Assembly (NCBI GenBank): GCA_903873135.1
Contig: CAIQNH010000113.1
Coordinates: 1-33,457 of the forward strand
Source of the DNA: an uncultured Actinomycetes bacterium
Lineage (GTDB): Bacteria; Actinomycetota; Acidimicrobiia; Acidimicrobiales; Microtrichaceae
Reading direction: 5' to 3'
DNA: 33,457 nucleotides
Shown: positions 25,769-32,499 of the stretch, piece by piece
Layout: every line of letters begins with the position of its first letter
Numbering within the stretch: position 1 is the stretch's first letter
Made by a program: the position numbers and the translations under genes
Notes under the pieces: generated by a model
The model's input: the letters and a program-made list of their open reading frames with translations, nothing else
Told to the model about the DNA's origin: nothing
The model's database searches: none

Positions 25769-27175
25769 GTGAGTGAGACCTCGTTCGACCTGGTGGTGAT
25801 CGGTGGTGGCCCCGGTGGCTACGGCGCGGCGTTGTACGCGGCCTCGGCGGGTCTGTCCGTCGCCGTGGTCGAGCGGGACAAGGTCGGCGGCACGTGCCTC
25901 CACCGGGGCTGCATCCCGGCCAAGGAGTTCCTGGAGACGGCGTCGGTGGTCCGCACCGTCAAGCACGCCGGTGAGTTCGGCGTGGTCGTCGAGCCCCGGT
26001 CGCTCGACTGGCCGGTGGTGCTGCAGCGCAAGCAACAGGTGATCGACCGTCTCTTCGGCGGGGTCAGCCAGCTGCTCAAGGGTCGCAAGGTCGAGGTGTT
26101 CGCCGGCACGGGCACGCTCGGGGCCGACCGGACGGTCACCGTCCGCAACGACGAGACCGGGGAGTCGGCGGTGCTCACCGGCGGTGCCGTGGTGCTGGCG
26201 AGCGGCTCGGTGCCGCGGATCCTGCCGGGATTCGAGCCCGGTGGTGTGGTGGTGACCTCCGACGAGTTCTTCGACATCGGCCAGGTCCCGTACCGGTCGG
26301 TGGTGATCGGCGGCGGCGCGATCGGCTGCGAGTTCGCCTCGACGCTCGCCGACCTGGGTTCGCAGGTCACGCTGCTCGAGGCGCTCCCGAAGATCCTCCC
26401 CGGCTGCGACGAGGACGTCACCCGGGTGGTGGTGCAGTCGTTCAAGAAGAAGGGCATCGACGTGCGCACCGGCGTGGCGGTCGAGGGTCACGCCCCCAAC
26501 GGCGCCGGCGGCACCACGGTGCAGCTCGGCGACGGCTCGACGCTGGACAGCGAGCTCGTCGTGGTCTCGATCGGGCGTCGTCCGAACACGGCGTCGCTGC
26601 TCGGCCCGGGAGCCGGTGTGGAGCTGACCGACCGGGGTCACGTCGACGTCGACGACCACTACCGGACCCACGCCGAAGGGGTCTACGCGATCGGCGACGT
26701 GATCGACTCGCCCCAGCTGGCCCACGTGGCCTTCGCCGAGGCCATCTGCGTGGTGCGGCTCATCCTGGGCGAGGACGTCCCGCCGGTCGACGACGACTTC
26801 GTGCCGTGGGCGATCTACTGCAACCCGGAGGTGGCCTTCGCCGGGTACTCCGAGTCCCAGGCGAGGGAGCGGGGCCTCGAGGTGGTCACCTCGAAGCACC
26901 GGTTCGCCGGCAACAGCCGGGCCATGATCCTGGGCGAGACGGACGGGCTCGTGAAGGTCATCGCCGAGCGCGACGCCGACGGACGGGCCGGTCGGATCCT
27001 CGGGGTGCACATGGTGGGACCCTGGGTCACCGAGCAGCTCTCCGGCGGGTACCTGGCCGTCAACTGGGAGGCCACCGTCGACGAGGTGGCCGCCTTCATC
27101 CAGCCGCACCCGTCCCTGACCGAGCTGTTCGGTGAGACCGTCCTGTCGTTGACGGGTCGGTCGCTGCACGGCTGA
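25769..27175 (+). CDS. lpdA: Dihydrolipoamide dehydrogenase (E3)
   Basis: E3 re-oxidises the dihydrolipoyl group of E2 using FAD, a redox disulfide and NAD+. The 468-residue product has the FAD motif VVIGGGPGGYGAALYAASAG, the redox pair C43-x4-C48 in GGTCLHRGCIPAKEFL, the NAD motif VVIGGGAIGCEFASTLADLG, EGVYAIGDVIDSPQLAHVAF, and the C-terminal QPHPSLTELFGET with the His-Glu pair. Length and motifs are complete. It precedes the E2 gene by 68 bases in the same direction and lies in a block that also makes the lipoyl cofactor. Confidence 0.96.
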   Translation: MSETSFDLVVIGGGPGGYGAALYAASAGLSVAVVERDKVGGTCLHRGCIPAKEFLETASVVRTVKHAGEFGVVVEPRSLDWPVVLQRKQQVIDRLFGGVSQLLKGRKVEVFAGTGTLGADRTVTVRNDETGESAVLTGGAVVLASGSVPRILPGFEPGGVVVTSDEFFDIGQVPYRSVVIGGGAIGCEFASTLADLGSQVTLLEALPKILPGCDEDVTRVVVQSFKKKGIDVRTGVAVEGHAPNGAGGTTVQLGDGSTLDSELVVVSIGRRPNTASLLGPGAGVELTDRGHVDVDDHYRTHAEGVYAIGDVIDSPQLAHVAFAEAICVVRLILGEDVPPVDDDFVPWAIYCNPEVAFAGYSESQARERGLEVVTSKHRFAGNSRAMILGETDGLVKVIAERDADGRAGRILGVHMVGPWVTEQLSGGYLAVNWEATVDEVAAFIQPHPSLTELFGETVLSLTGRSLHG

Positions 27176-27243: not shown

Positions 27244-28737
27244 ATGACCGACATCGTGATGCCGCAGCTCGGTGAGTCCGTCACCGAGGGCACGATCACC
27301 CGTTGGTTCAAGGCGGTGGGCGACAGCGTCACCGAGGACGAGCCGCTCTTCGAGGTGTCCACCGACAAGGTGGACACCGAGGTCCCGGCACCAGCTGGTG
27401 GGGTCCTCACCGAGATCCTCGTGTCCGAGGGCGACACCGTGGACGTGGGCACCGTCCTGGCCGTGCTGGGTGGCGCCGGGGCGGCACCGGCCCCGGCGAC
27501 CGAGGTCGCACCTGCCGCGGCCCCGGCTGCGGCCCCGGTGGAGCCGACCCCCGCACCGGCACCGGCACCCGCTCCGGTCGAGCCTGCACCTGCACCTGCA
27601 CCTGCACCCGCACCTGCGGCGGCCCCGGCCCCGGTGGAGCCGACCCCCGCAGCGGTCGAGCCGACGCCCGCCCCGCAACCGGCACCCGCACCAGCCGCAG
27701 CCGCCTCCGGCGGCGGCCCGGTGCTGTCGCCCCTGGTCCGCCGTCTCGTCGCCGAGCACGGACTCGACGTGTCGCAGATCCGTGGCACCGGCGTGGGCGG
27801 TCGCATCACCCGGGAGGACGTCTTCGACGCCATCGACGCTGCGGCTGCCGCCTCGAGCGCCCCGGCTCCGGGACCGGCTCCGGCCCCGGCACCGGCTCCG
27901 GCACCGGCTCCGGCCCCGGCACCGGCACCGGCTCCGGCACCGACCCAGGCGACGCCGGGATCTGCGCCGGCGTCCGCGGTGGGTCCCCGGACGAGCGCCG
28001 ACCCGGCGCCCATGCACCACGGCGCCGGCGACCGCGTGGTGGAGCTCAACAAGATCCGCAGGGTGACCGGGGAGCACATGGTCGCCTCCAAGGCGATCTC
28101 GCCGCACGCCGTGACCGTCGTCGAGGTCGACTTCGAGGGCGTCGACTCCGTTCGACGTGCCGTCGGCGAGGAGTTCCGGGCGACCGAGGGCTACTCGCTC
28201 ACGTACCTGCCGTTCGTGTCCCGGGCCGTCATCGACGCGCTCCACGAGTTCCCCCGCATGAACGCTGCGGTCGACGGCGGCTCCCTCGTGATCCACAACG
28301 AGGTGCACCTGGCGATCGCGGTCGACCTCGACTTCGAGGGACTCCTCGCCCCCGTGGTGCGCAACGCGCACGAGCAGCGTCTGCGTGCCATCGCCGCCGA
28401 CATCCGCTCGTTGGCCGACCGGGCCAGGTCCAGGCAGCTCGGACCCGACGAGCTCTCGGGGGGCACGTTCACCATCTCCAACTCGGGGAGCTACGGGACC
28501 GAGATCGTCATCCCGATCATCAACCAGCCCCAGGTGGCGATCCTGTCGACCGACGGCGTCCGTCGACGGCCGGTGGTCGTCGACGACGGTCGGGGTGGCG
28601 AGGCGATCGCCGTCCACTCGGTCGGCAACCTCACGCTCGCCTGGGACCACCGGGCCTTCGACGGCGCCTACGCGGCGGCGTTCGTCGCTCGCGTGCGCGA
28701 CATCATCGAGACCCGGGACTGGGCGTCCGAGCTCTGA
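27244..28737 (+). CDS. sucB: 2-oxoacid dehydrogenase E2 (dihydrolipoyl acyltransferase), single lipoyl domain
   Basis: E2 carries the lipoyl arm and forms the core of a 2-oxoacid dehydrogenase complex. The 497-residue protein has a lipoyl domain at residues 1-78 with the modified lysine K42 in STDKVDTEV. A long Ala-Pro linker follows (about 79-158), then the E1/E3-binding domain (about 160-197, SPLVRRLVAEHGLDVSQIRG with GRITREDVFDAI). A second Ala-Pro linker (about 199-250) leads to the catalytic domain (about 257-497) with SNSGSYGTEIVIPIINQPQV and the active-site H469-x3-D473-G. Whether it serves pyruvate, 2-oxoglutarate or branched-chain acids is uncertain, so the gene symbol is provisional. 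Its stop overlaps the LipB-LipA start (TGATG). Confidence 0.92.
   Translation: MTDIVMPQLGESVTEGTITRWFKAVGDSVTEDEPLFEVSTDKVDTEVPAPAGGVLTEILVSEGDTVDVGTVLAVLGGAGAAPAPATEVAPAAAPAAAPVEPTPAPAPAPAPVEPAPAPAPAPAPAAAPAPVEPTPAAVEPTPAPQPAPAPAAAASGGGPVLSPLVRRLVAEHGLDVSQIRGTGVGGRITREDVFDAIDAAAAASSAPAPGPAPAPAPAPAPAPAPAPAPAPAPTQATPGSAPASAVGPRTSADPAPMHHGAGDRVVELNKIRRVTGEHMVASKAISPHAVTVVEVDFEGVDSVRRAVGEEFRATEGYSLTYLPFVSRAVIDALHEFPRMNAAVDGGSLVIHNEVHLAIAVDLDFEGLLAPVVRNAHEQRLRAIAADIRSLADRARSRQLGPDELSGGTFTISNSGSYGTEIVIPIINQPQVAILSTDGVRRRPVVVDDGRGGEAIAVHSVGNLTLAWDHRAFDGAYAAAFVARVRDIIETRDWASEL
27475..27715 (+). repeat. Ala-Pro-rich linker repeats in E2 (first linker)
   Basis: Short imperfect tandem units such as GCACCTGCACCT and CCGGCACCGGC encode Ala-Pro dipeptides with two near-copies of A-P-V-E-P-T-P-A. 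The repeats are coding and in frame and serve as the flexible swinging-arm linker. Confidence 0.75.
27844..28010 (+). repeat. Ala-Pro-rich linker repeats in E2 (second linker)
   Basis: Tandem CCGGCTCCGG / CCGGCACCGG units encode about ten Pro-Ala dipeptides between the peripheral-subunit-binding and catalytic domains. Such arrays can change length by slippage without losing frame when the unit is a multiple of six bases. Confidence 0.7.
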
Positions 28738-30437
28738 TGGGCAGCGCTCCGCTCCGGGTCCGCTGGCTCGGTTCGGTCGCCTACCGCGAGGCGTGGTCAC
28801 TCCAGCAGGCCCTGCACCGTCGGGCGCTGGAGGTCGAGGCCCGGGGAGGGGTTCCCGACGACCACCTCCTGCTCCTCGAGCACCCGCCCACGTTGACCCT
28901 GGGTCGCCAGGCCGACCCGGCCAACCTGCTCGTCGATCGGGACTCGTCGCGCTTCGAGGTCCTCGACGTGGATCGGGGCGGGGACGTGACCTACCACGGT
29001 CCCGGGCAGCTGGTGGCCTACCCGCTCCTCGGGCTGCCGGGGAAGGGCGCCGGTGACCTCCCGGACACACCGGCCTACGTCTGCACGCTCGAGGGGGTCC
29101 TGATCGACGTCGTCCGCGCCGCCGGGGTGGAGTCGGTGGGGCGACTCCCGGGGTACCCGGGGGTCTGGGTCGACCCGGACGGACCGGACCCTCGCAAGGT
29201 GGCTGCGGTCGGGGTGCGGATCGTCGCCGGACGTTCGACCCACGGCGTGGCGCTCAACGTCGCTCCCGACCTCGGCGACTTCGCAGCGATCGTCCCGTGC
29301 GGCATCCGGGACCACGGGGTCACGTCGCTCGCGGCCGAGGGGGCCGAGGTCGACCTCCGGTGGGTGGTGGACGAGTTCGTCGACCGGTTCGTCGCCGCGT
29401 GGGCCCCGAGCGTGGTGCAGCGGAGCGACGTGGTCTGGCGCATCGACCCGGAGGGCACCGACCTGTCGGACTTCTCCCGGTCGGCCGGGTCGAGCACCGT
29501 GTCGGTCCGACTGCGCGGCCGTCTCGAGTCCGCAGGGGTGGAGGTCGGCTCCGGTGAGGTCGCCCGCAAGCCCGAGTGGATGCGGGCGCCGCTGCGTCAC
29601 GACGCCGGGGTGCTCGGGGTGAAGCGGACCGTCGCCGACCTGGACCTGGTCACGGTCTGCGAGGAGGCGGGGTGCCCCAACCTCTCCGAGTGCTGGTCGG
29701 AGGGCACCGCCACGTTCATGCTCTGTGGCGAGCGCTGCACGCGGGCGTGCGGGTTCTGCCTCGTCGACACCCGCCGGCCGGAGCCCCTGGACCCCGGCGA
29801 GCCAGGGCGGGTCGCCGACGCCGTGGCCCGGATGGCCCTCGACCACGCCGTGCTCACCATGGTGGCCCGCGACGACCTCTCCGACGGTGGAGCGGCCCAC
29901 GTCGCCGACACGGTGCGCGCCGTACGGGACCGCTCGCCGTCGTGCAGCGTCGAGGTGCTGGTCTCGGACCTCGGTGGTGACGCCGACGCCCTCGCCGTCG
30001 TGCTGGACTCCGGTCCCGCCGTGCTGAACCACAACGTCGAGACCGTGCCCCGACTGCAGCGGGCCGTCCGTCCCTCGGCCGGGTACGCCCGCTCGCTCGC
30101 GTTGCTCGGTCGGGCGGCTGCGACGGACGTGGTCGTGAAGTCGGGTCTGGTCGTCGGCATGGGTGAGGAGCTCGACGAGGTCCACGCCACCCTGGCCGAC
30201 CTGGCTGCGGTCGGGGTCGAGGTCGTGACGATCGGCCAGTACCTGCGGCCCACGGCGCGGCACCTCCCGGTGGCGCGGTGGTGGCGGCCCGAGGAGTTCG
30301 ACGAGCTCGCCGAGTTCGGCCGGGGCGTGGGCCTGCGCCACGTGGAGTCCTCCCCCTACACGCGCTCGAGCCACCACGCCCGGGAGTCGTACCTGGCGGC
30401 GCTGGCCTCCCGGGACGGGGAACCGGCGTGGGGCTGA
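28737..30437 (+). CDS. lipB-lipA: LipB-LipA fusion: octanoyltransferase plus lipoyl synthase in one polypeptide
   Basis: One uninterrupted frame encodes 566 residues with both steps of lipoate synthesis. Residues 1 to about 222 are LipB, which moves octanoyl from acyl carrier protein to E2. It has RGGDVTYHGPGQLVAYPLLG, K154 (DPRKVAAVGVRI) and C188 (IVPCGIRDHGVTSL). A linker covers about 223-277. Residues about 278-566 are LipA, a radical-SAM enzyme that inserts two sulfurs. It has the auxiliary-cluster cysteines C308, C313, C319 (C-x4-C-x5-C), the SAM-cluster cysteines C334, C338, C341 (C-x3-C-x2-C), ARDDLSDGGA, KSGLVVGMGE and the cluster-binding RSSHH near the end. Separate LipB and LipA are normal. 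An in-frame GTG at 29538 could start a free LipA, but no stop ends LipB before it. ATG 28737 overlaps the E2 stop. The LipA half depends on Fe-S clusters from the Suf genes. Confidence 0.93.
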   Translation: MGSAPLRVRWLGSVAYREAWSLQQALHRRALEVEARGGVPDDHLLLLEHPPTLTLGRQADPANLLVDRDSSRFEVLDVDRGGDVTYHGPGQLVAYPLLGLPGKGAGDLPDTPAYVCTLEGVLIDVVRAAGVESVGRLPGYPGVWVDPDGPDPRKVAAVGVRIVAGRSTHGVALNVAPDLGDFAAIVPCGIRDHGVTSLAAEGAEVDLRWVVDEFVDRFVAAWAPSVVQRSDVVWRIDPEGTDLSDFSRSAGSSTVSVRLRGRLESAGVEVGSGEVARKPEWMRAPLRHDAGVLGVKRTVADLDLVTVCEEAGCPNLSECWSEGTATFMLCGERCTRACGFCLVDTRRPEPLDPGEPGRVADAVARMALDHAVLTMVARDDLSDGGAAHVADTVRAVRDRSPSCSVEVLVSDLGGDADALAVVLDSGPAVLNHNVETVPRLQRAVRPSAGYARSLALLGRAAATDVVVKSGLVVGMGEELDEVHATLADLAAVGVEVVTIGQYLRPTARHLPVARWWRPEEFDELAEFGRGVGLRHVESSPYTRSSHHARESYLAALASRDGEPAWG

Positions 30438-31195
30438 TCGCCCGCTACCGCGAGCAGACGGCGGCCGTCCCGTCGGTGGCGACGGCACCCCCCGAGCTGC
30501 CGCACCACGCGACGGGCGTCGTCCACCACGACGCCGTCGCAGACGACGGCACGGTCACGCACCACCACCAGCGGTTCGTCGCGGGCCGACTCGTGGAGTG
30601 GGAGCTCGACGACGGACCCGGACCGTGGGCGCTGGTCCGTCCGGGTGACCCGCTCCTGCCCTGCCCGACCGACGTGGCCCCGCCGGAGCGGACGGAGGCG
30701 GCCCGGCTCCGGCTGGGCGACGAGCTCCTGTCGTTGCCCGTGGTCGACGACATCGAGGACCCGGGGTTCGCCGGTGTCGAGCGGGTGCCGGACGCGGACC
30801 TGCGCCTGCGCTTCGAGGTGCTCTCGACGCCGACGGGGGTCCAGCGCGCCGACTTCCGCTACGACCGTGGTCTCCGGACCGGGTGGCTCGTCGAGGACTG
30901 GGGTGAGCCGGAACCGGGGTCCCCCGCGGCGCACGCACCCGACCTCTCGGTGTCCATGACGTTCCGGAACTACCTGCGGATGCGGACCGGCGAGATCTCG
31001 GCGCTCGAGGCGATCGCGGACGGTGGGTCCGTCGACGGACGGTGGACGCTCATGCTCCTGCTGCACGGACTGGTGCAGGACCCCGTCTACGTGGCCACCT
31101 ACCGGGCGTCGACCCCGGTCCCGGCCGAGCTGGGGTGGTGGGGCGAGGTGGCACCCTGGATCGGCACCGATGGGCCGGTTCCCGTCCGGGGGTGA
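30428..31195 (+). CDS. Unknown protein with a possible SCP2-like C-terminal domain
   Basis: This 255-residue soluble protein overlaps the end of the LipB-LipA gene by 10 bases (GTG 30428), so it is probably co-translated. The first half is rich in His/Asp strands (HHDAVADDGTVTHHHQRFVA, VEWELDDGPGPWALVRPGDP). The C-terminal part (DLSVSMTFRNYLRMRTGEIS then ALEAIADGGSVDGRWTLMLL) resembles the shape of SCP2 lipid-binding domains, with strand, helix, G-x-V-D-G-x-W and helix. That match is by eye and weak. No catalytic motif is seen. Its place after the lipoate gene may reflect only operon convenience. Confidence 0.65.
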   Translation: MGLIARYREQTAAVPSVATAPPELPHHATGVVHHDAVADDGTVTHHHQRFVAGRLVEWELDDGPGPWALVRPGDPLLPCPTDVAPPERTEAARLRLGDELLSLPVVDDIEDPGFAGVERVPDADLRLRFEVLSTPTGVQRADFRYDRGLRTGWLVEDWGEPEPGSPAAHAPDLSVSMTFRNYLRMRTGEISALEAIADGGSVDGRWTLMLLLHGLVQDPVYVATYRASTPVPAELGWWGEVAPWIGTDGPVPVRG

Positions 31196-31251: not shown

Positions 31252-32499
31252 GTGTTCCAGTGGTCCGACGAGCAGGAGATGGTCCGCCAGGCGGTCCGGG
31301 ACTTCGTGGACCGGGAGATCCGGCCCCACCGGGACGAGCTCGAGTTCGGCGACCTCCCGCCCTACGACCTGCTGCGGAAGCTGTTCGCCACGTTCGGCAT
31401 GGACGCCATGCAGCGCGAGAGCTTCAAGCGGCGCATCGAGCGTGAGCGGGCCGTGGAGGCGGGGGAGTCGGTCGAGGCCCAGGACGCCGAGGCGGGACGC
31501 GGGGGCAGCGCCGACGCCATCGCCTTCACGATGATCCCGATCATCGAGCTGTGCCGGGTCTGCCCCGGCATGGTGACCGCCATGGGTGTGTCCATGGGGC
31601 TGACGGCCTCGGCGATCATGTCCAAGGGGACGATCGCGCAGAAGGAGCGCTGGGCGCTCGACCTGCTCACCATGGAGAAGGTCGGCTCGTGGGCGATCAC
31701 CGAGCCCAACTCCGGCTCCGACGCCTTCGGTGCCATGACGTCCACGGCGCGCATCGACGGCGACGAGTTCGTGCTGAACGGTTCCAAGACCTTCATCACC
31801 AACGGTCCGCACGCCGACACGATCGTCTTCATCTGCAAGCTCGACGAGGGCAACCCGCCCGAGGAACGCCGCATCGTCCAGTTCGTGCTCGACGCCGGGA
31901 TGGACGGTCTCGAGCAGTCGAAGCCGCTCCGCAAGATGGGCATCCACTCCTCGCCGACGGGGCAGCTGTTCCTGACCGACGTGCGGGTGGGCGCCGACCG
32001 CCTGCTCGGCGAGTCGTTGGACGCGTACTCCGGCAAGAGCGGCAAGGACGCCTCGAAGGCGACCTTCTCCATGGAGCGAGCCGGAGTGGCGGCCATGGCA
32101 CTCGGGATCGTCGACCGGTGCCTCGAGCTGTCGCTCGACTACGCCCGGGACCGGGTCCAGTTCGGCCAGCCGATCGGCCAGTTCCAGCTCATCCAGTTGA
32201 AGCTCGCCACGATGGAGGTGGCCAGGATCAACCTGCAGAACCTGGTGTTCCGCCACATCGAGATGACCGCCGCCGGCGTGCCCATGAGCTACGCCGAGGC
32301 CTCGGCCGCCAAGCTCTACGCCGCCCGGGCCGCCACCGAGGTGGCGCTCGAGGCGGTGCAGCTCTTCGGTGGCAACGGCTACATGGCCGAGTACGAGGTC
32401 GAGCAGCTGGCCCGGGACGCCAAGGTGCTCCAGATCTACGCGGGGACCGACGAGATCCAGATCTCGGCGGTGGCCCGCTCGCTGCTCGCCCAGGGCTGA
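31252..32499 (+). CDS. Acyl-CoA dehydrogenase (FadE family)
   Basis: The 415-residue FAD enzyme introduces a double bond into an acyl-CoA during fatty acid or related catabolism. It shows WSDEQEMVRQAVRDFVDREI, the FAD/substrate loop SWAITEPNSGSDAFGAMTST, LNGSKTFITNGPHADTIVFI, YARDRVQFGQPIGQFQLIQL, LFGGNGYMAEYEVEQLARDA and the catalytic-Glu motif IYAGTDEIQISA. An inserted stretch (KRRIERERAVEAGESVEAQD and following residues) lies near residues 60-85, so it is slightly longer than the usual 380-390 residues. AGGAGG directly upstream fixes the GTG start. Unlike the homologue at 9736, the catalytic region is canonical. The two could belong to different pathways. Confidence 0.94.
   Translation: MFQWSDEQEMVRQAVRDFVDREIRPHRDELEFGDLPPYDLLRKLFATFGMDAMQRESFKRRIERERAVEAGESVEAQDAEAGRGGSADAIAFTMIPIIELCRVCPGMVTAMGVSMGLTASAIMSKGTIAQKERWALDLLTMEKVGSWAITEPNSGSDAFGAMTSTARIDGDEFVLNGSKTFITNGPHADTIVFICKLDEGNPPEERRIVQFVLDAGMDGLEQSKPLRKMGIHSSPTGQLFLTDVRVGADRLLGESLDAYSGKSGKDASKATFSMERAGVAAMALGIVDRCLELSLDYARDRVQFGQPIGQFQLIQLKLATMEVARINLQNLVFRHIEMTAAGVPMSYAEASAAKLYAARAATEVALEAVQLFGGNGYMAEYEVEQLARDAKVLQIYAGTDEIQISAVARSLLAQG

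Follow-up and report, generated by a model that had tools for sequence, protein, structure and literature searches.

Does the reading frame directly downstream of an E2 gene in this Acidimicrobiia genome encode LipB (octanoyltransferase) and LipA (lipoyl synthase) as one protein, and would such a protein carry out both reactions? The question arises in the window, i.e. the whole stretch of 33,457 nucleotides analysed, where the initial annotation had read both enzymes in a single chain of 566 residues.

One frame for LipB and LipA

Translation of the frame gave 566 residues without an internal stop (Table 1), and NCBIfam models were passed for both halves, in agreement with that first reading. 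The same frame is found in other assemblies, with 86% identity in G001 and 78% in G005. The dN/dS values are 0.11-0.23 for the LipB and LipA halves, indicating purifying selection on both, and 0.24-0.59 for the linker; taken together, the shared frame and these values rule out a chance open frame.

The first half belongs to the LipB octanoyltransferases: it scored 130.2 bits with TIGR00214 (cut-off 83.55) and 179.2 bits with PRK14345 (cut-off 155), remaining under the cut-offs of three further LipB models (PRK14341, 14342 and 14343), and it carries the Cys/Lys dyad. Counting along the alignment with chain 1w66, the M. tuberculosis LipB, K154 and C188 fall opposite residues 144 and 178, which we equated, through a numbering offset of 2, with the published dyad K142/C176 (PMC9307952).

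The second half is assigned to the LipA lipoyl synthases by curated cut-offs (TIGR00510, 329.9 bits against 310.25; PRK05481, 367 bits against 203; passed over about residues 273-555), by both cysteine triads and by the RSS motif. With Pfam LIAS_N it scored 23 bits in one search, below the 27-bit cut-off, and 26.9 bits (27.1 with neighbours) in the genome search, where it was reported as above the cut-off; LIAS_N has a single match in the whole 98.3% complete genome. Following the LipA literature, we take C308/C313/C319 to be the auxiliary-cluster cysteines, and the C-terminal RSS motif presumably supplies the serine ligand to that cluster, a role which is putative here.

The Lys/Cys pair of LipB and the six cysteines of LipA, which the initial annotation had already described as complete, are invariant in all 137 distinct fused homologues, and so are the LipB substrate-site residues (137/137). 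This set was obtained from 164 two-half frames after leaving out 2 partial sequences, 3 with X and 16 duplicates and setting apart 6 from Anaerolineae.

The separate LipB and LipA of E. coli and M. tuberculosis belong to the same two families, with the same catalytic residues and folds (1w66, 5exk), but are encoded by two genes and made as two chains, whereas Acidimicrobiia have one chain. The NCBIfam entry NF053790 (bifunctional lipoate--protein ligase/lipoyl synthase) by its name places lipoyl synthase behind a lipoate ligase, which shares Pfam LplA-B_cat with LipB. That LplA-LipA protein begins with the ligase, whereas the Acidimicrobiia fusion begins with LipB; the protein encoded in the window reaches 323 of the 800 bits that the entry requires, aligning only to profile positions 328-605 of 606, i.e. 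the LipA part, and falls outside it.

Table 1. Features of the fused gene and its upstream neighbours (positions in the window)
Feature	Position	Strand	Basis
Dihydrolipoamide dehydrogenase-like (E3) gene	25769..27175	+	Pfam Pyr_redox_2, Pyr_redox_dim
E2 of 2-oxoacid dehydrogenase, one lipoyl domain	27244..28737	+	Pfam Biotin_lipoyl, E3_binding, 2-oxoacid_dh; junction TGATG
lipB-lipA fused gene	28737..30437	+	566 codons plus TGA, single open frame
LipB (octanoyltransferase) domain, residues 4-227	28746..29417	+	PRK14345 4-227; Foldseek 1w66 TMt 0.85
K154, LipB catalytic lysine	29196..29198	+	1w66 alignment; 137/137 invariant
C188, acyl-accepting cysteine of LipB	29298..29300	+	1w66 alignment; 137/137 invariant
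Linker and LipA N-terminal extension, residues 225-276	29409..29564	+	domain marks 18-87 residues apart (137 homologues); model weakest about 231-260
LipA (lipoyl synthase, radical SAM) domain, about residues 277-555	29565..30401	+	TIGR00510 274-553; PRK05481 278-555; Foldseek 5exk TMt 0.95
C308/C313/C319, presumed auxiliary-cluster cysteines	29658..29693	+	137/137 invariant
C334/C338/C341, radical-SAM CxxxCxxC motif	29736..29759	+	137/137 invariant
R543-S544-S545, C-terminal RSS motif	30363..30371	+	R543, S544 invariant 137/137; S545 invariant in 111 rows of alignment A1

Proposed function and its alternatives

We propose, with a probability of roughly 0.87, that the fused protein is a single-chain bifunctional enzyme, derived from neighbouring lipB and lipA, which would octanoylate lipoyl domains and then insert sulfur. 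Octanoate would first be loaded from octanoyl-ACP by the LipB half, onto Cys188 and with the participation of Lys154, and from there be transferred to a lipoyl-domain lysine, that of E2 and probably also that of GcvH; the radical-SAM LipA half, with its two iron-sulfur clusters, would then insert two sulfurs into the protein-bound octanoate. It is from sequence that we infer both activities and the use of two substrates. Joining the halves would fix their ratio at 1:1 and keep sulfur insertion near octanoylation, perhaps in a fixed two-domain arrangement.

An E2 gene directly upstream and overlapping had been noted at the outset, and this can be read in the sequence, where the TGA of E2 (28735-28737) and the ATG of the fused gene (28737-28739) share one base. 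E2 is probably not the sole client of the fused protein, since GcvH is encoded elsewhere in the source genome, on a different contig, and among 60 fused loci there are 9 where 2 kb or more of upstream sequence contains no E2 match. At named Actinomycetes loci lipB and lipA are separate but adjoining, and 8 of 9 such loci have an E2 match in the same orientation no more than 3.1 kb upstream.

AlphaFold2 modelled the fused protein with a pLDDT of 93 and a pTM of 0.94 (111 rows), and Foldseek matched the modelled halves to known structures of LipA (5exk) and LipB (1w66). The pTM suggests that the two domains pack in a fixed arrangement. A crude covariation analysis of a shallow alignment (Neff 63) gave no sign of direct coupling between LipB and LipA, inter-half pairs accounting for 14 of the top 100 versus 43% expected from column numbers.

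We consider it unlikely that one chain is made and two enzymes are at work, either by cleavage after synthesis or through an extra internal LipA start, so that the fusion would ensure only co-expression. The variable length (18-87 residues) and weaker constraint of the linker speak for such an arrangement, as do the AlphaFold2 confidence, lowest at about residues 231-260, and the start codons with Shine-Dalgarno-like 4-mers present in 57 of 136 linkers. However, a LipB control stretch gave a comparable number of the latter (45 of 136), and without a clear excess over that stretch we rejected a separate LipA made from an internal start; the predicted packing of the halves and the open junction maintained across the sampled class likewise argue for a single working chain.

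A good deal less probable is that one of the halves has come to serve a structural or regulatory function, with LipB acting for example as a docking module. The source genome encodes a separate LplA-like protein (C20), above the Pfam LplA-B_cat cut-off and below the NCBIfam ligase cut-offs, which makes another lipoylation route possible, and in one class genome (G394) the LipB half is interrupted by a stop although the junction is intact. A LipB half repurposed in this way is hard to reconcile with a dyad and substrate-site residues that never vary among the fused homologues and with the purifying selection on that half.

The single-chain bifunctional enzyme could, as a tentative extension, be a putative lipoate-assembly station, in which LipB and LipA are held fixed and a docked lipoyl domain would be octanoylated and then sulfurated without release, and which would have evolved at least twice. 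Octanoyl-E2 may also be channelled. Both LipB and LipA reportedly co-purify with E. coli dehydrogenases. Whether the two cooperate on the dehydrogenase is an old question; it becomes directly accessible through a natural fusion that is conserved across the sampled class and probably originated a second time, as transfer and sulfur insertion could be assayed in the fused protein with and without the linker.

Distribution and origin of the fusion

The LipB-LipA fusion in Acidimicrobiia is real. Of 61 relatives searched, 56 gave a real match, and in every one of these LipB continues into LipA within a single frame; of 75 additional Acidimicrobiia genomes, 72 show the same. The fused frame also occurs on two contigs of exactly the lengths published for the finished chromosomes of Acidimicrobium ferrooxidans (2,158,157 bases; PMC3035218) and Ilumatobacter coccineum (4,830,181 bases; PMC3910706). 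The window comes from a draft of 257 contigs, but because independent genomes share the one-frame junction, the hidden stop or frameshift at 29400-29560 that the initial annotation had allowed for is excluded, and the chance that an assembly or base-calling error merged two separate genes is negligible.

Exceptions within the class are a genome with LipB alone and no LipA match (G148), a frame change shortly past the LipA start (G263) and a truncation by the contig end (G159). One genome (G110) has an additional separate lipB/lipA pair, and 32 of the 395 genomes of the class sample have no match. Outside Acidimicrobiia, the spanning matches listed for the phylum sample all contain internal stops (six checked), and the fusion may mark the class within its phylum. 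For 299 genomes of Pseudomonadota (the phylum of G794), three of the matches listed span both halves fully, each with an internal stop, and a partial fourth among them (G1321) also has one.

As to whether the fusion was already known in related actinobacteria, which the initial annotation had asked, it is general in the Acidimicrobiia sample; no paper naming it was found in the open-licence literature searched, including passages of PMC10218983, PMC3904984, PMC7186572, PMC12246082, PMC8639206, PMC7468506, PMC3917532, PMC4572677 and PMC4398509, and none of the six places with 'fusion' or 'fused' in PMC10332631 concerns LipB-LipA. Annotation pipelines should take warning, since they may name just one half of the fused protein.

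The LipA tree places the Acidimicrobiia group together with 11 stand-alone LipA rows of Actinomycetota (SH-aLRT 90, midpoint root), and ten further such rows are placed elsewhere. A single Acidimicrobiia group receives moderate support from the tree of LipA (SH-aLRT 82) and weak support from that of LipB (SH-aLRT 11). The fusion is probably older than the diversification of the class and probably arose when the stop separating adjacent lipB and lipA genes, close to an E2 gene, was lost.

A second LipB-LipA fusion, in one frame and with the same domain order, is present in at least 6 of 298 genomes of the Anaerolineae class. It differs from the Acidimicrobiia fusion in tree placement, its LipA half falling among stand-alone LipA of Anaerolineae. 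A single clade for all fused proteins was rejected for LipA (p-AU 6e-5) and not for LipB (p-AU 0.38), in tests which left out four long or doubtful LipA rows (L097, L110, L193 and L234) and three LipB rows (L097, L193 and L234). The Anaerolineae fusion is thus, judging from these sequences, probably of independent origin. AlphaFold2 gave the six Anaerolineae fusions a pLDDT of 78 and a pTM of 0.56, from an alignment of 6 rows only.

In four other genomes of Anaerolineae (G1014, G801, G935 and G895) LipA is surrounded by a long frame, which on inspection proved not to be a fusion. A fused locus labelled 'Acidobacteria' (L102) was dismissed as a third origin, as its contig equals that of the class member G065 in length and in the place of the match, which points to a label problem. 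Three contigs titled Bifidobacterium breve (L046, L055 and L056) encode fused proteins of the Acidimicrobiia type, and we take their titles to be wrong.

Fused gene and its neighbourhood

On translation, the fused gene reads as 566 codons and a stop in a single open frame, and models of both enzymes score over their NCBIfam cut-offs, bearing out the initial annotation, which had read LipB and LipA in one 566-residue protein with no stop between them. The LipB half (residues 4-227) reaches 179 bits with PRK14345 (cut-off 155) and 130 with TIGR00214 (cut-off 83.55), and the LipA half (residues about 273-555) reaches 367 bits with PRK05481 (cut-off 203) and 330 with TIGR00510 (cut-off 310.25). 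The NCBIfam fusion model LplA_LipA_fuse (cut-off 800) was not reached, matching the LipA part only, with 323 bits. The best sequence relatives in the Protein Data Bank were M. tuberculosis 5exi for LipA (over residues 255-559) and 1w66 for LipB (over residues 6-204). In the alignment with chain 1w66, K154 and C188 pair, by our count, with its residues 144 and 178; we equate the pair with the published LipB catalytic dyad K142/C176 (PMC9307952), at an offset of 2 from the 1w66 numbering. The E2 gene had been described as lying directly upstream and overlapping, and its stop indeed has one base in common with the ATG of the fused gene, in a TGATG junction.

Coordinates of the fused gene, its neighbours and the Anaerolineae fusions
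Feature	Position	Strand	Remarks
E3 gene	25769-27175	+	upstream of fused gene, same strand
E2 gene	27244-28737	+	upstream of fused gene; carries a single lipoyl domain, an E3-binding domain and a catalytic domain
Fused LipB-LipA gene	28737-30437	+	LipB half, then LipA half
253-codon stretch	30434-31192	+	downstream of fused gene; no Pfam match
Acyl-CoA dehydrogenase gene	31252-32499		downstream of fused gene, after the 253-codon stretch
Anaerolineae LipB-LipA fusions	L086 (5025-6569), L182, L183, L184, L202, L203		loci in other genomes

The junction across Acidimicrobiia

The fusion is not an assembly artefact. An assembly error hiding a stop or frameshift, which the initial annotation had named among the things that would refute its reading, was examined by following the junction through other genomes. 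In a first set of 61 genomes, the source genome included, 57 had a match, of which that in G019 is a weak radical-SAM hit and was set aside. In all 56 remaining relatives an open frame runs unbroken over the junction from LipB to LipA, or through as much of them as the contig holds; this was read off a single match or a pair of adjacent matches with equal open-frame length. None of the 56 has separate lipB and lipA genes. One of them, G028, has a frame change inside LipA, past the junction.

A sample of the class gave a match in 363 of 395 genomes and, among the matches listed, the junction was spanned in one place, in a few cases with one stop. To reach beyond the matches listed, we searched again 75 class genomes, picked mainly as unlisted before or as having two matches, and found the junction in one frame in 72 (71 by match rows, and G268, where the LipB frame continues through the linker into LipA as far as the contig end). 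G263 has a frame change just past the LipA start, and in G159 the LipA frame and linker are cut by the contig end. G148 has LipB alone, in a 267-codon frame (L194), and no LipA match anywhere in that genome, possibly reflecting loss of LipA or a missing contig. Direct reading, complete or partial, of four genomes with stop-bearing rows showed a single frame for both halves in G352, G430 and G262, while G394 (L245) has a stop inside the LipB half, due to decay or sequencing error, and an unbroken frame at the junction. For the remaining two-piece cases the evidence is the equal length of the open frames, which the loci that were fetched, such as that of G009, bore out directly. Besides the fused gene, G110 has lipB and lipA as a separate pair on a contig of 5 kb (C83, L193), which may stem from contamination or transfer. 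Fused frames were also found in G073, where the whole frame was read, and in G086; these are putatively the chromosomes of Acidimicrobium ferrooxidans (type strain; PMC3035218) and of Ilumatobacter coccineum YM16-304 (PMC3910706).

The titles of some public MAGs are at odds with the sequence, namely Bifidobacterium breve (L046, L055, L056) and Acidobacteria (L102).

Origin and a second occurrence

In a sample of 396 Actinomycetota, the stop-free spans over both halves among the matches listed all came from Acidimicrobiia; six spanning rows from outside the class carry stops, and all six, once fetched (L216-L221), proved to be separate frames. The named Actinomycetes among 80 loci (Dietzia, Rhodococcus, Nocardia, Arthrobacter, Brachybacterium, Kocuria, Microtetraspora and Antrihabitans) have separate genes, with an upstream E2 match in 8 of 9 loci. 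Among 60 fused loci, one of them from Anaerolineae, 47 show a same-strand E2 match in the upstream flank that was fetched, four had less than 2 kb of upstream room, and nine lack the match despite at least 2 kb; several of these nine have E3 directly upstream instead, and L102 has a divergent lipoyl protein there. A branch with SH-aLRT 82 sets the Acidimicrobiia group apart in the LipA tree, where 11 stand-alone Actinomycetota rows join it (SH-aLRT 90, midpoint root) and 10 other Actinomycetota rows fall elsewhere; a branch also separates the group in the LipB tree, at a support of 11. The simplest account of the origin would be that the stop separating lipB from lipA was lost in an E2-associated gene cluster.

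At seven loci (L044, L049, L052, L054, L057, L060 and L083) an E3 gene closely precedes the fused gene, with no upstream E2 match in the fetched stretch.

A search of 298 Anaerolineae genomes, prompted by the fused protein of a MAG from that class (L086), showed at least six to be fused (G791, G1074, G813, G876, G806 and G973); among the matches listed, G1074, G813, G876 and G973 have an additional LipA match on another contig. In quick trees, the LipA halves of the six fusions are interspersed with stand-alone LipA of Anaerolineae and form no single clade (three changes of label), and the AU test rejects uniting all fused proteins in one clade for LipA (p-AU 6e-5); their LipB halves cluster together (SH-aLRT 99) next to stand-alone LipB of the same class, and for LipB a single origin of all fused proteins is not rejected (p-AU 0.38). 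Because of these placements and AU tests, we regard convergence between the Acidimicrobiia and Anaerolineae fusions as probable. No fused frame was found among the matches listed for 299 Pseudomonadota genomes.

Constraint, predicted structure and working

In 137 distinct fused sequences (the window's own protein included, partial, X-bearing and duplicate rows left out and Anaerolineae fusions kept apart), R80, G81, G82, T85, H87, G90, K154, C188 and G189 are invariant in the LipB half, as are C308, C313, C319, C334, C338, C341, R543 and S544 in the LipA half. When the window's fused gene was compared with those of G001, G005 and G004, Nei-Gojobori dN/dS was 0.12, 0.18 and 0.23 for LipB, 0.11, 0.15 and 0.21 for LipA, and 0.59, 0.24 and 0.56 for the linker. 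The stretch from position 225 to 273 spans 18-87 residues (median 46). Internal initiation of LipA from the linker is not clearly indicated, because an in-frame start with a Shine-Dalgarno-like 4-mer occurs in 57 of 136 linkers versus 45 of 136 LipB control stretches.

Many members have ADVVWR...DLxxFSRGxGPG...VRLxGRLAxAGV in common at the linker (window 29409-29564 and homologues). The recurring motif is roughly DLxxF[ST]RGxGPG; 75 of 137 sequences have a loose F[ST]R pattern, which is absent from short linkers, for example on Acidimicrobium- and Ferrithrix-labelled contigs.

The AlphaFold2 model of the protein (110 homologues) has a mean pLDDT of 93 and a pTM of 0.94, with residues 231-260 as its weakest long stretch, and Foldseek matches it to LipA 5exk (TM by target 0.95) and LipB 1w66 (0.85). 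Given how pTM is defined, such a value for two domains of some 225 and 290 residues would mean that their relative placement is confidently predicted. For the six Anaerolineae fusions pTM was 0.56, from an alignment of six rows only.

The chemistry of both families is established (PMC9307952 and PMC12246082), and from it would follow a working in which an octanoyl thioester forms on C188, is transferred to the lipoyl lysine and then receives sulfur by radical-SAM insertion; the fusion may speed or channel lipoate assembly. We found no description of a LipB-LipA fusion in the open-licence literature searched, and a large survey of lipoate assembly (PMC10332631), in its passages on fusions that were located, mentions them only for ligases. 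The fused sequence itself has presumably been public since genomes of 2009 and 2013; new here are the class-wide pattern, the finding that both active sites are conserved, the packing suggested by the model and a second occurrence, in Anaerolineae.

In the source genome (3.18 Mb, 257 contigs, 98.3% complete), the single LIAS_N match is the fused gene, and there are three LplA-B_cat matches. A lipoyl/biotin family search gave E2 and one further frame, of 704 codons, on contig C136, and GcvH is encoded on contig C221. E2 and GcvH, at a minimum, are therefore probable clients of the fused enzyme. One of the three LplA-B_cat matches, on contig C20, is a 373-residue lipoate-ligase-like protein (L003 1054-2172, minus strand), over the Pfam cut-off and below the NCBIfam ligase cut-offs.
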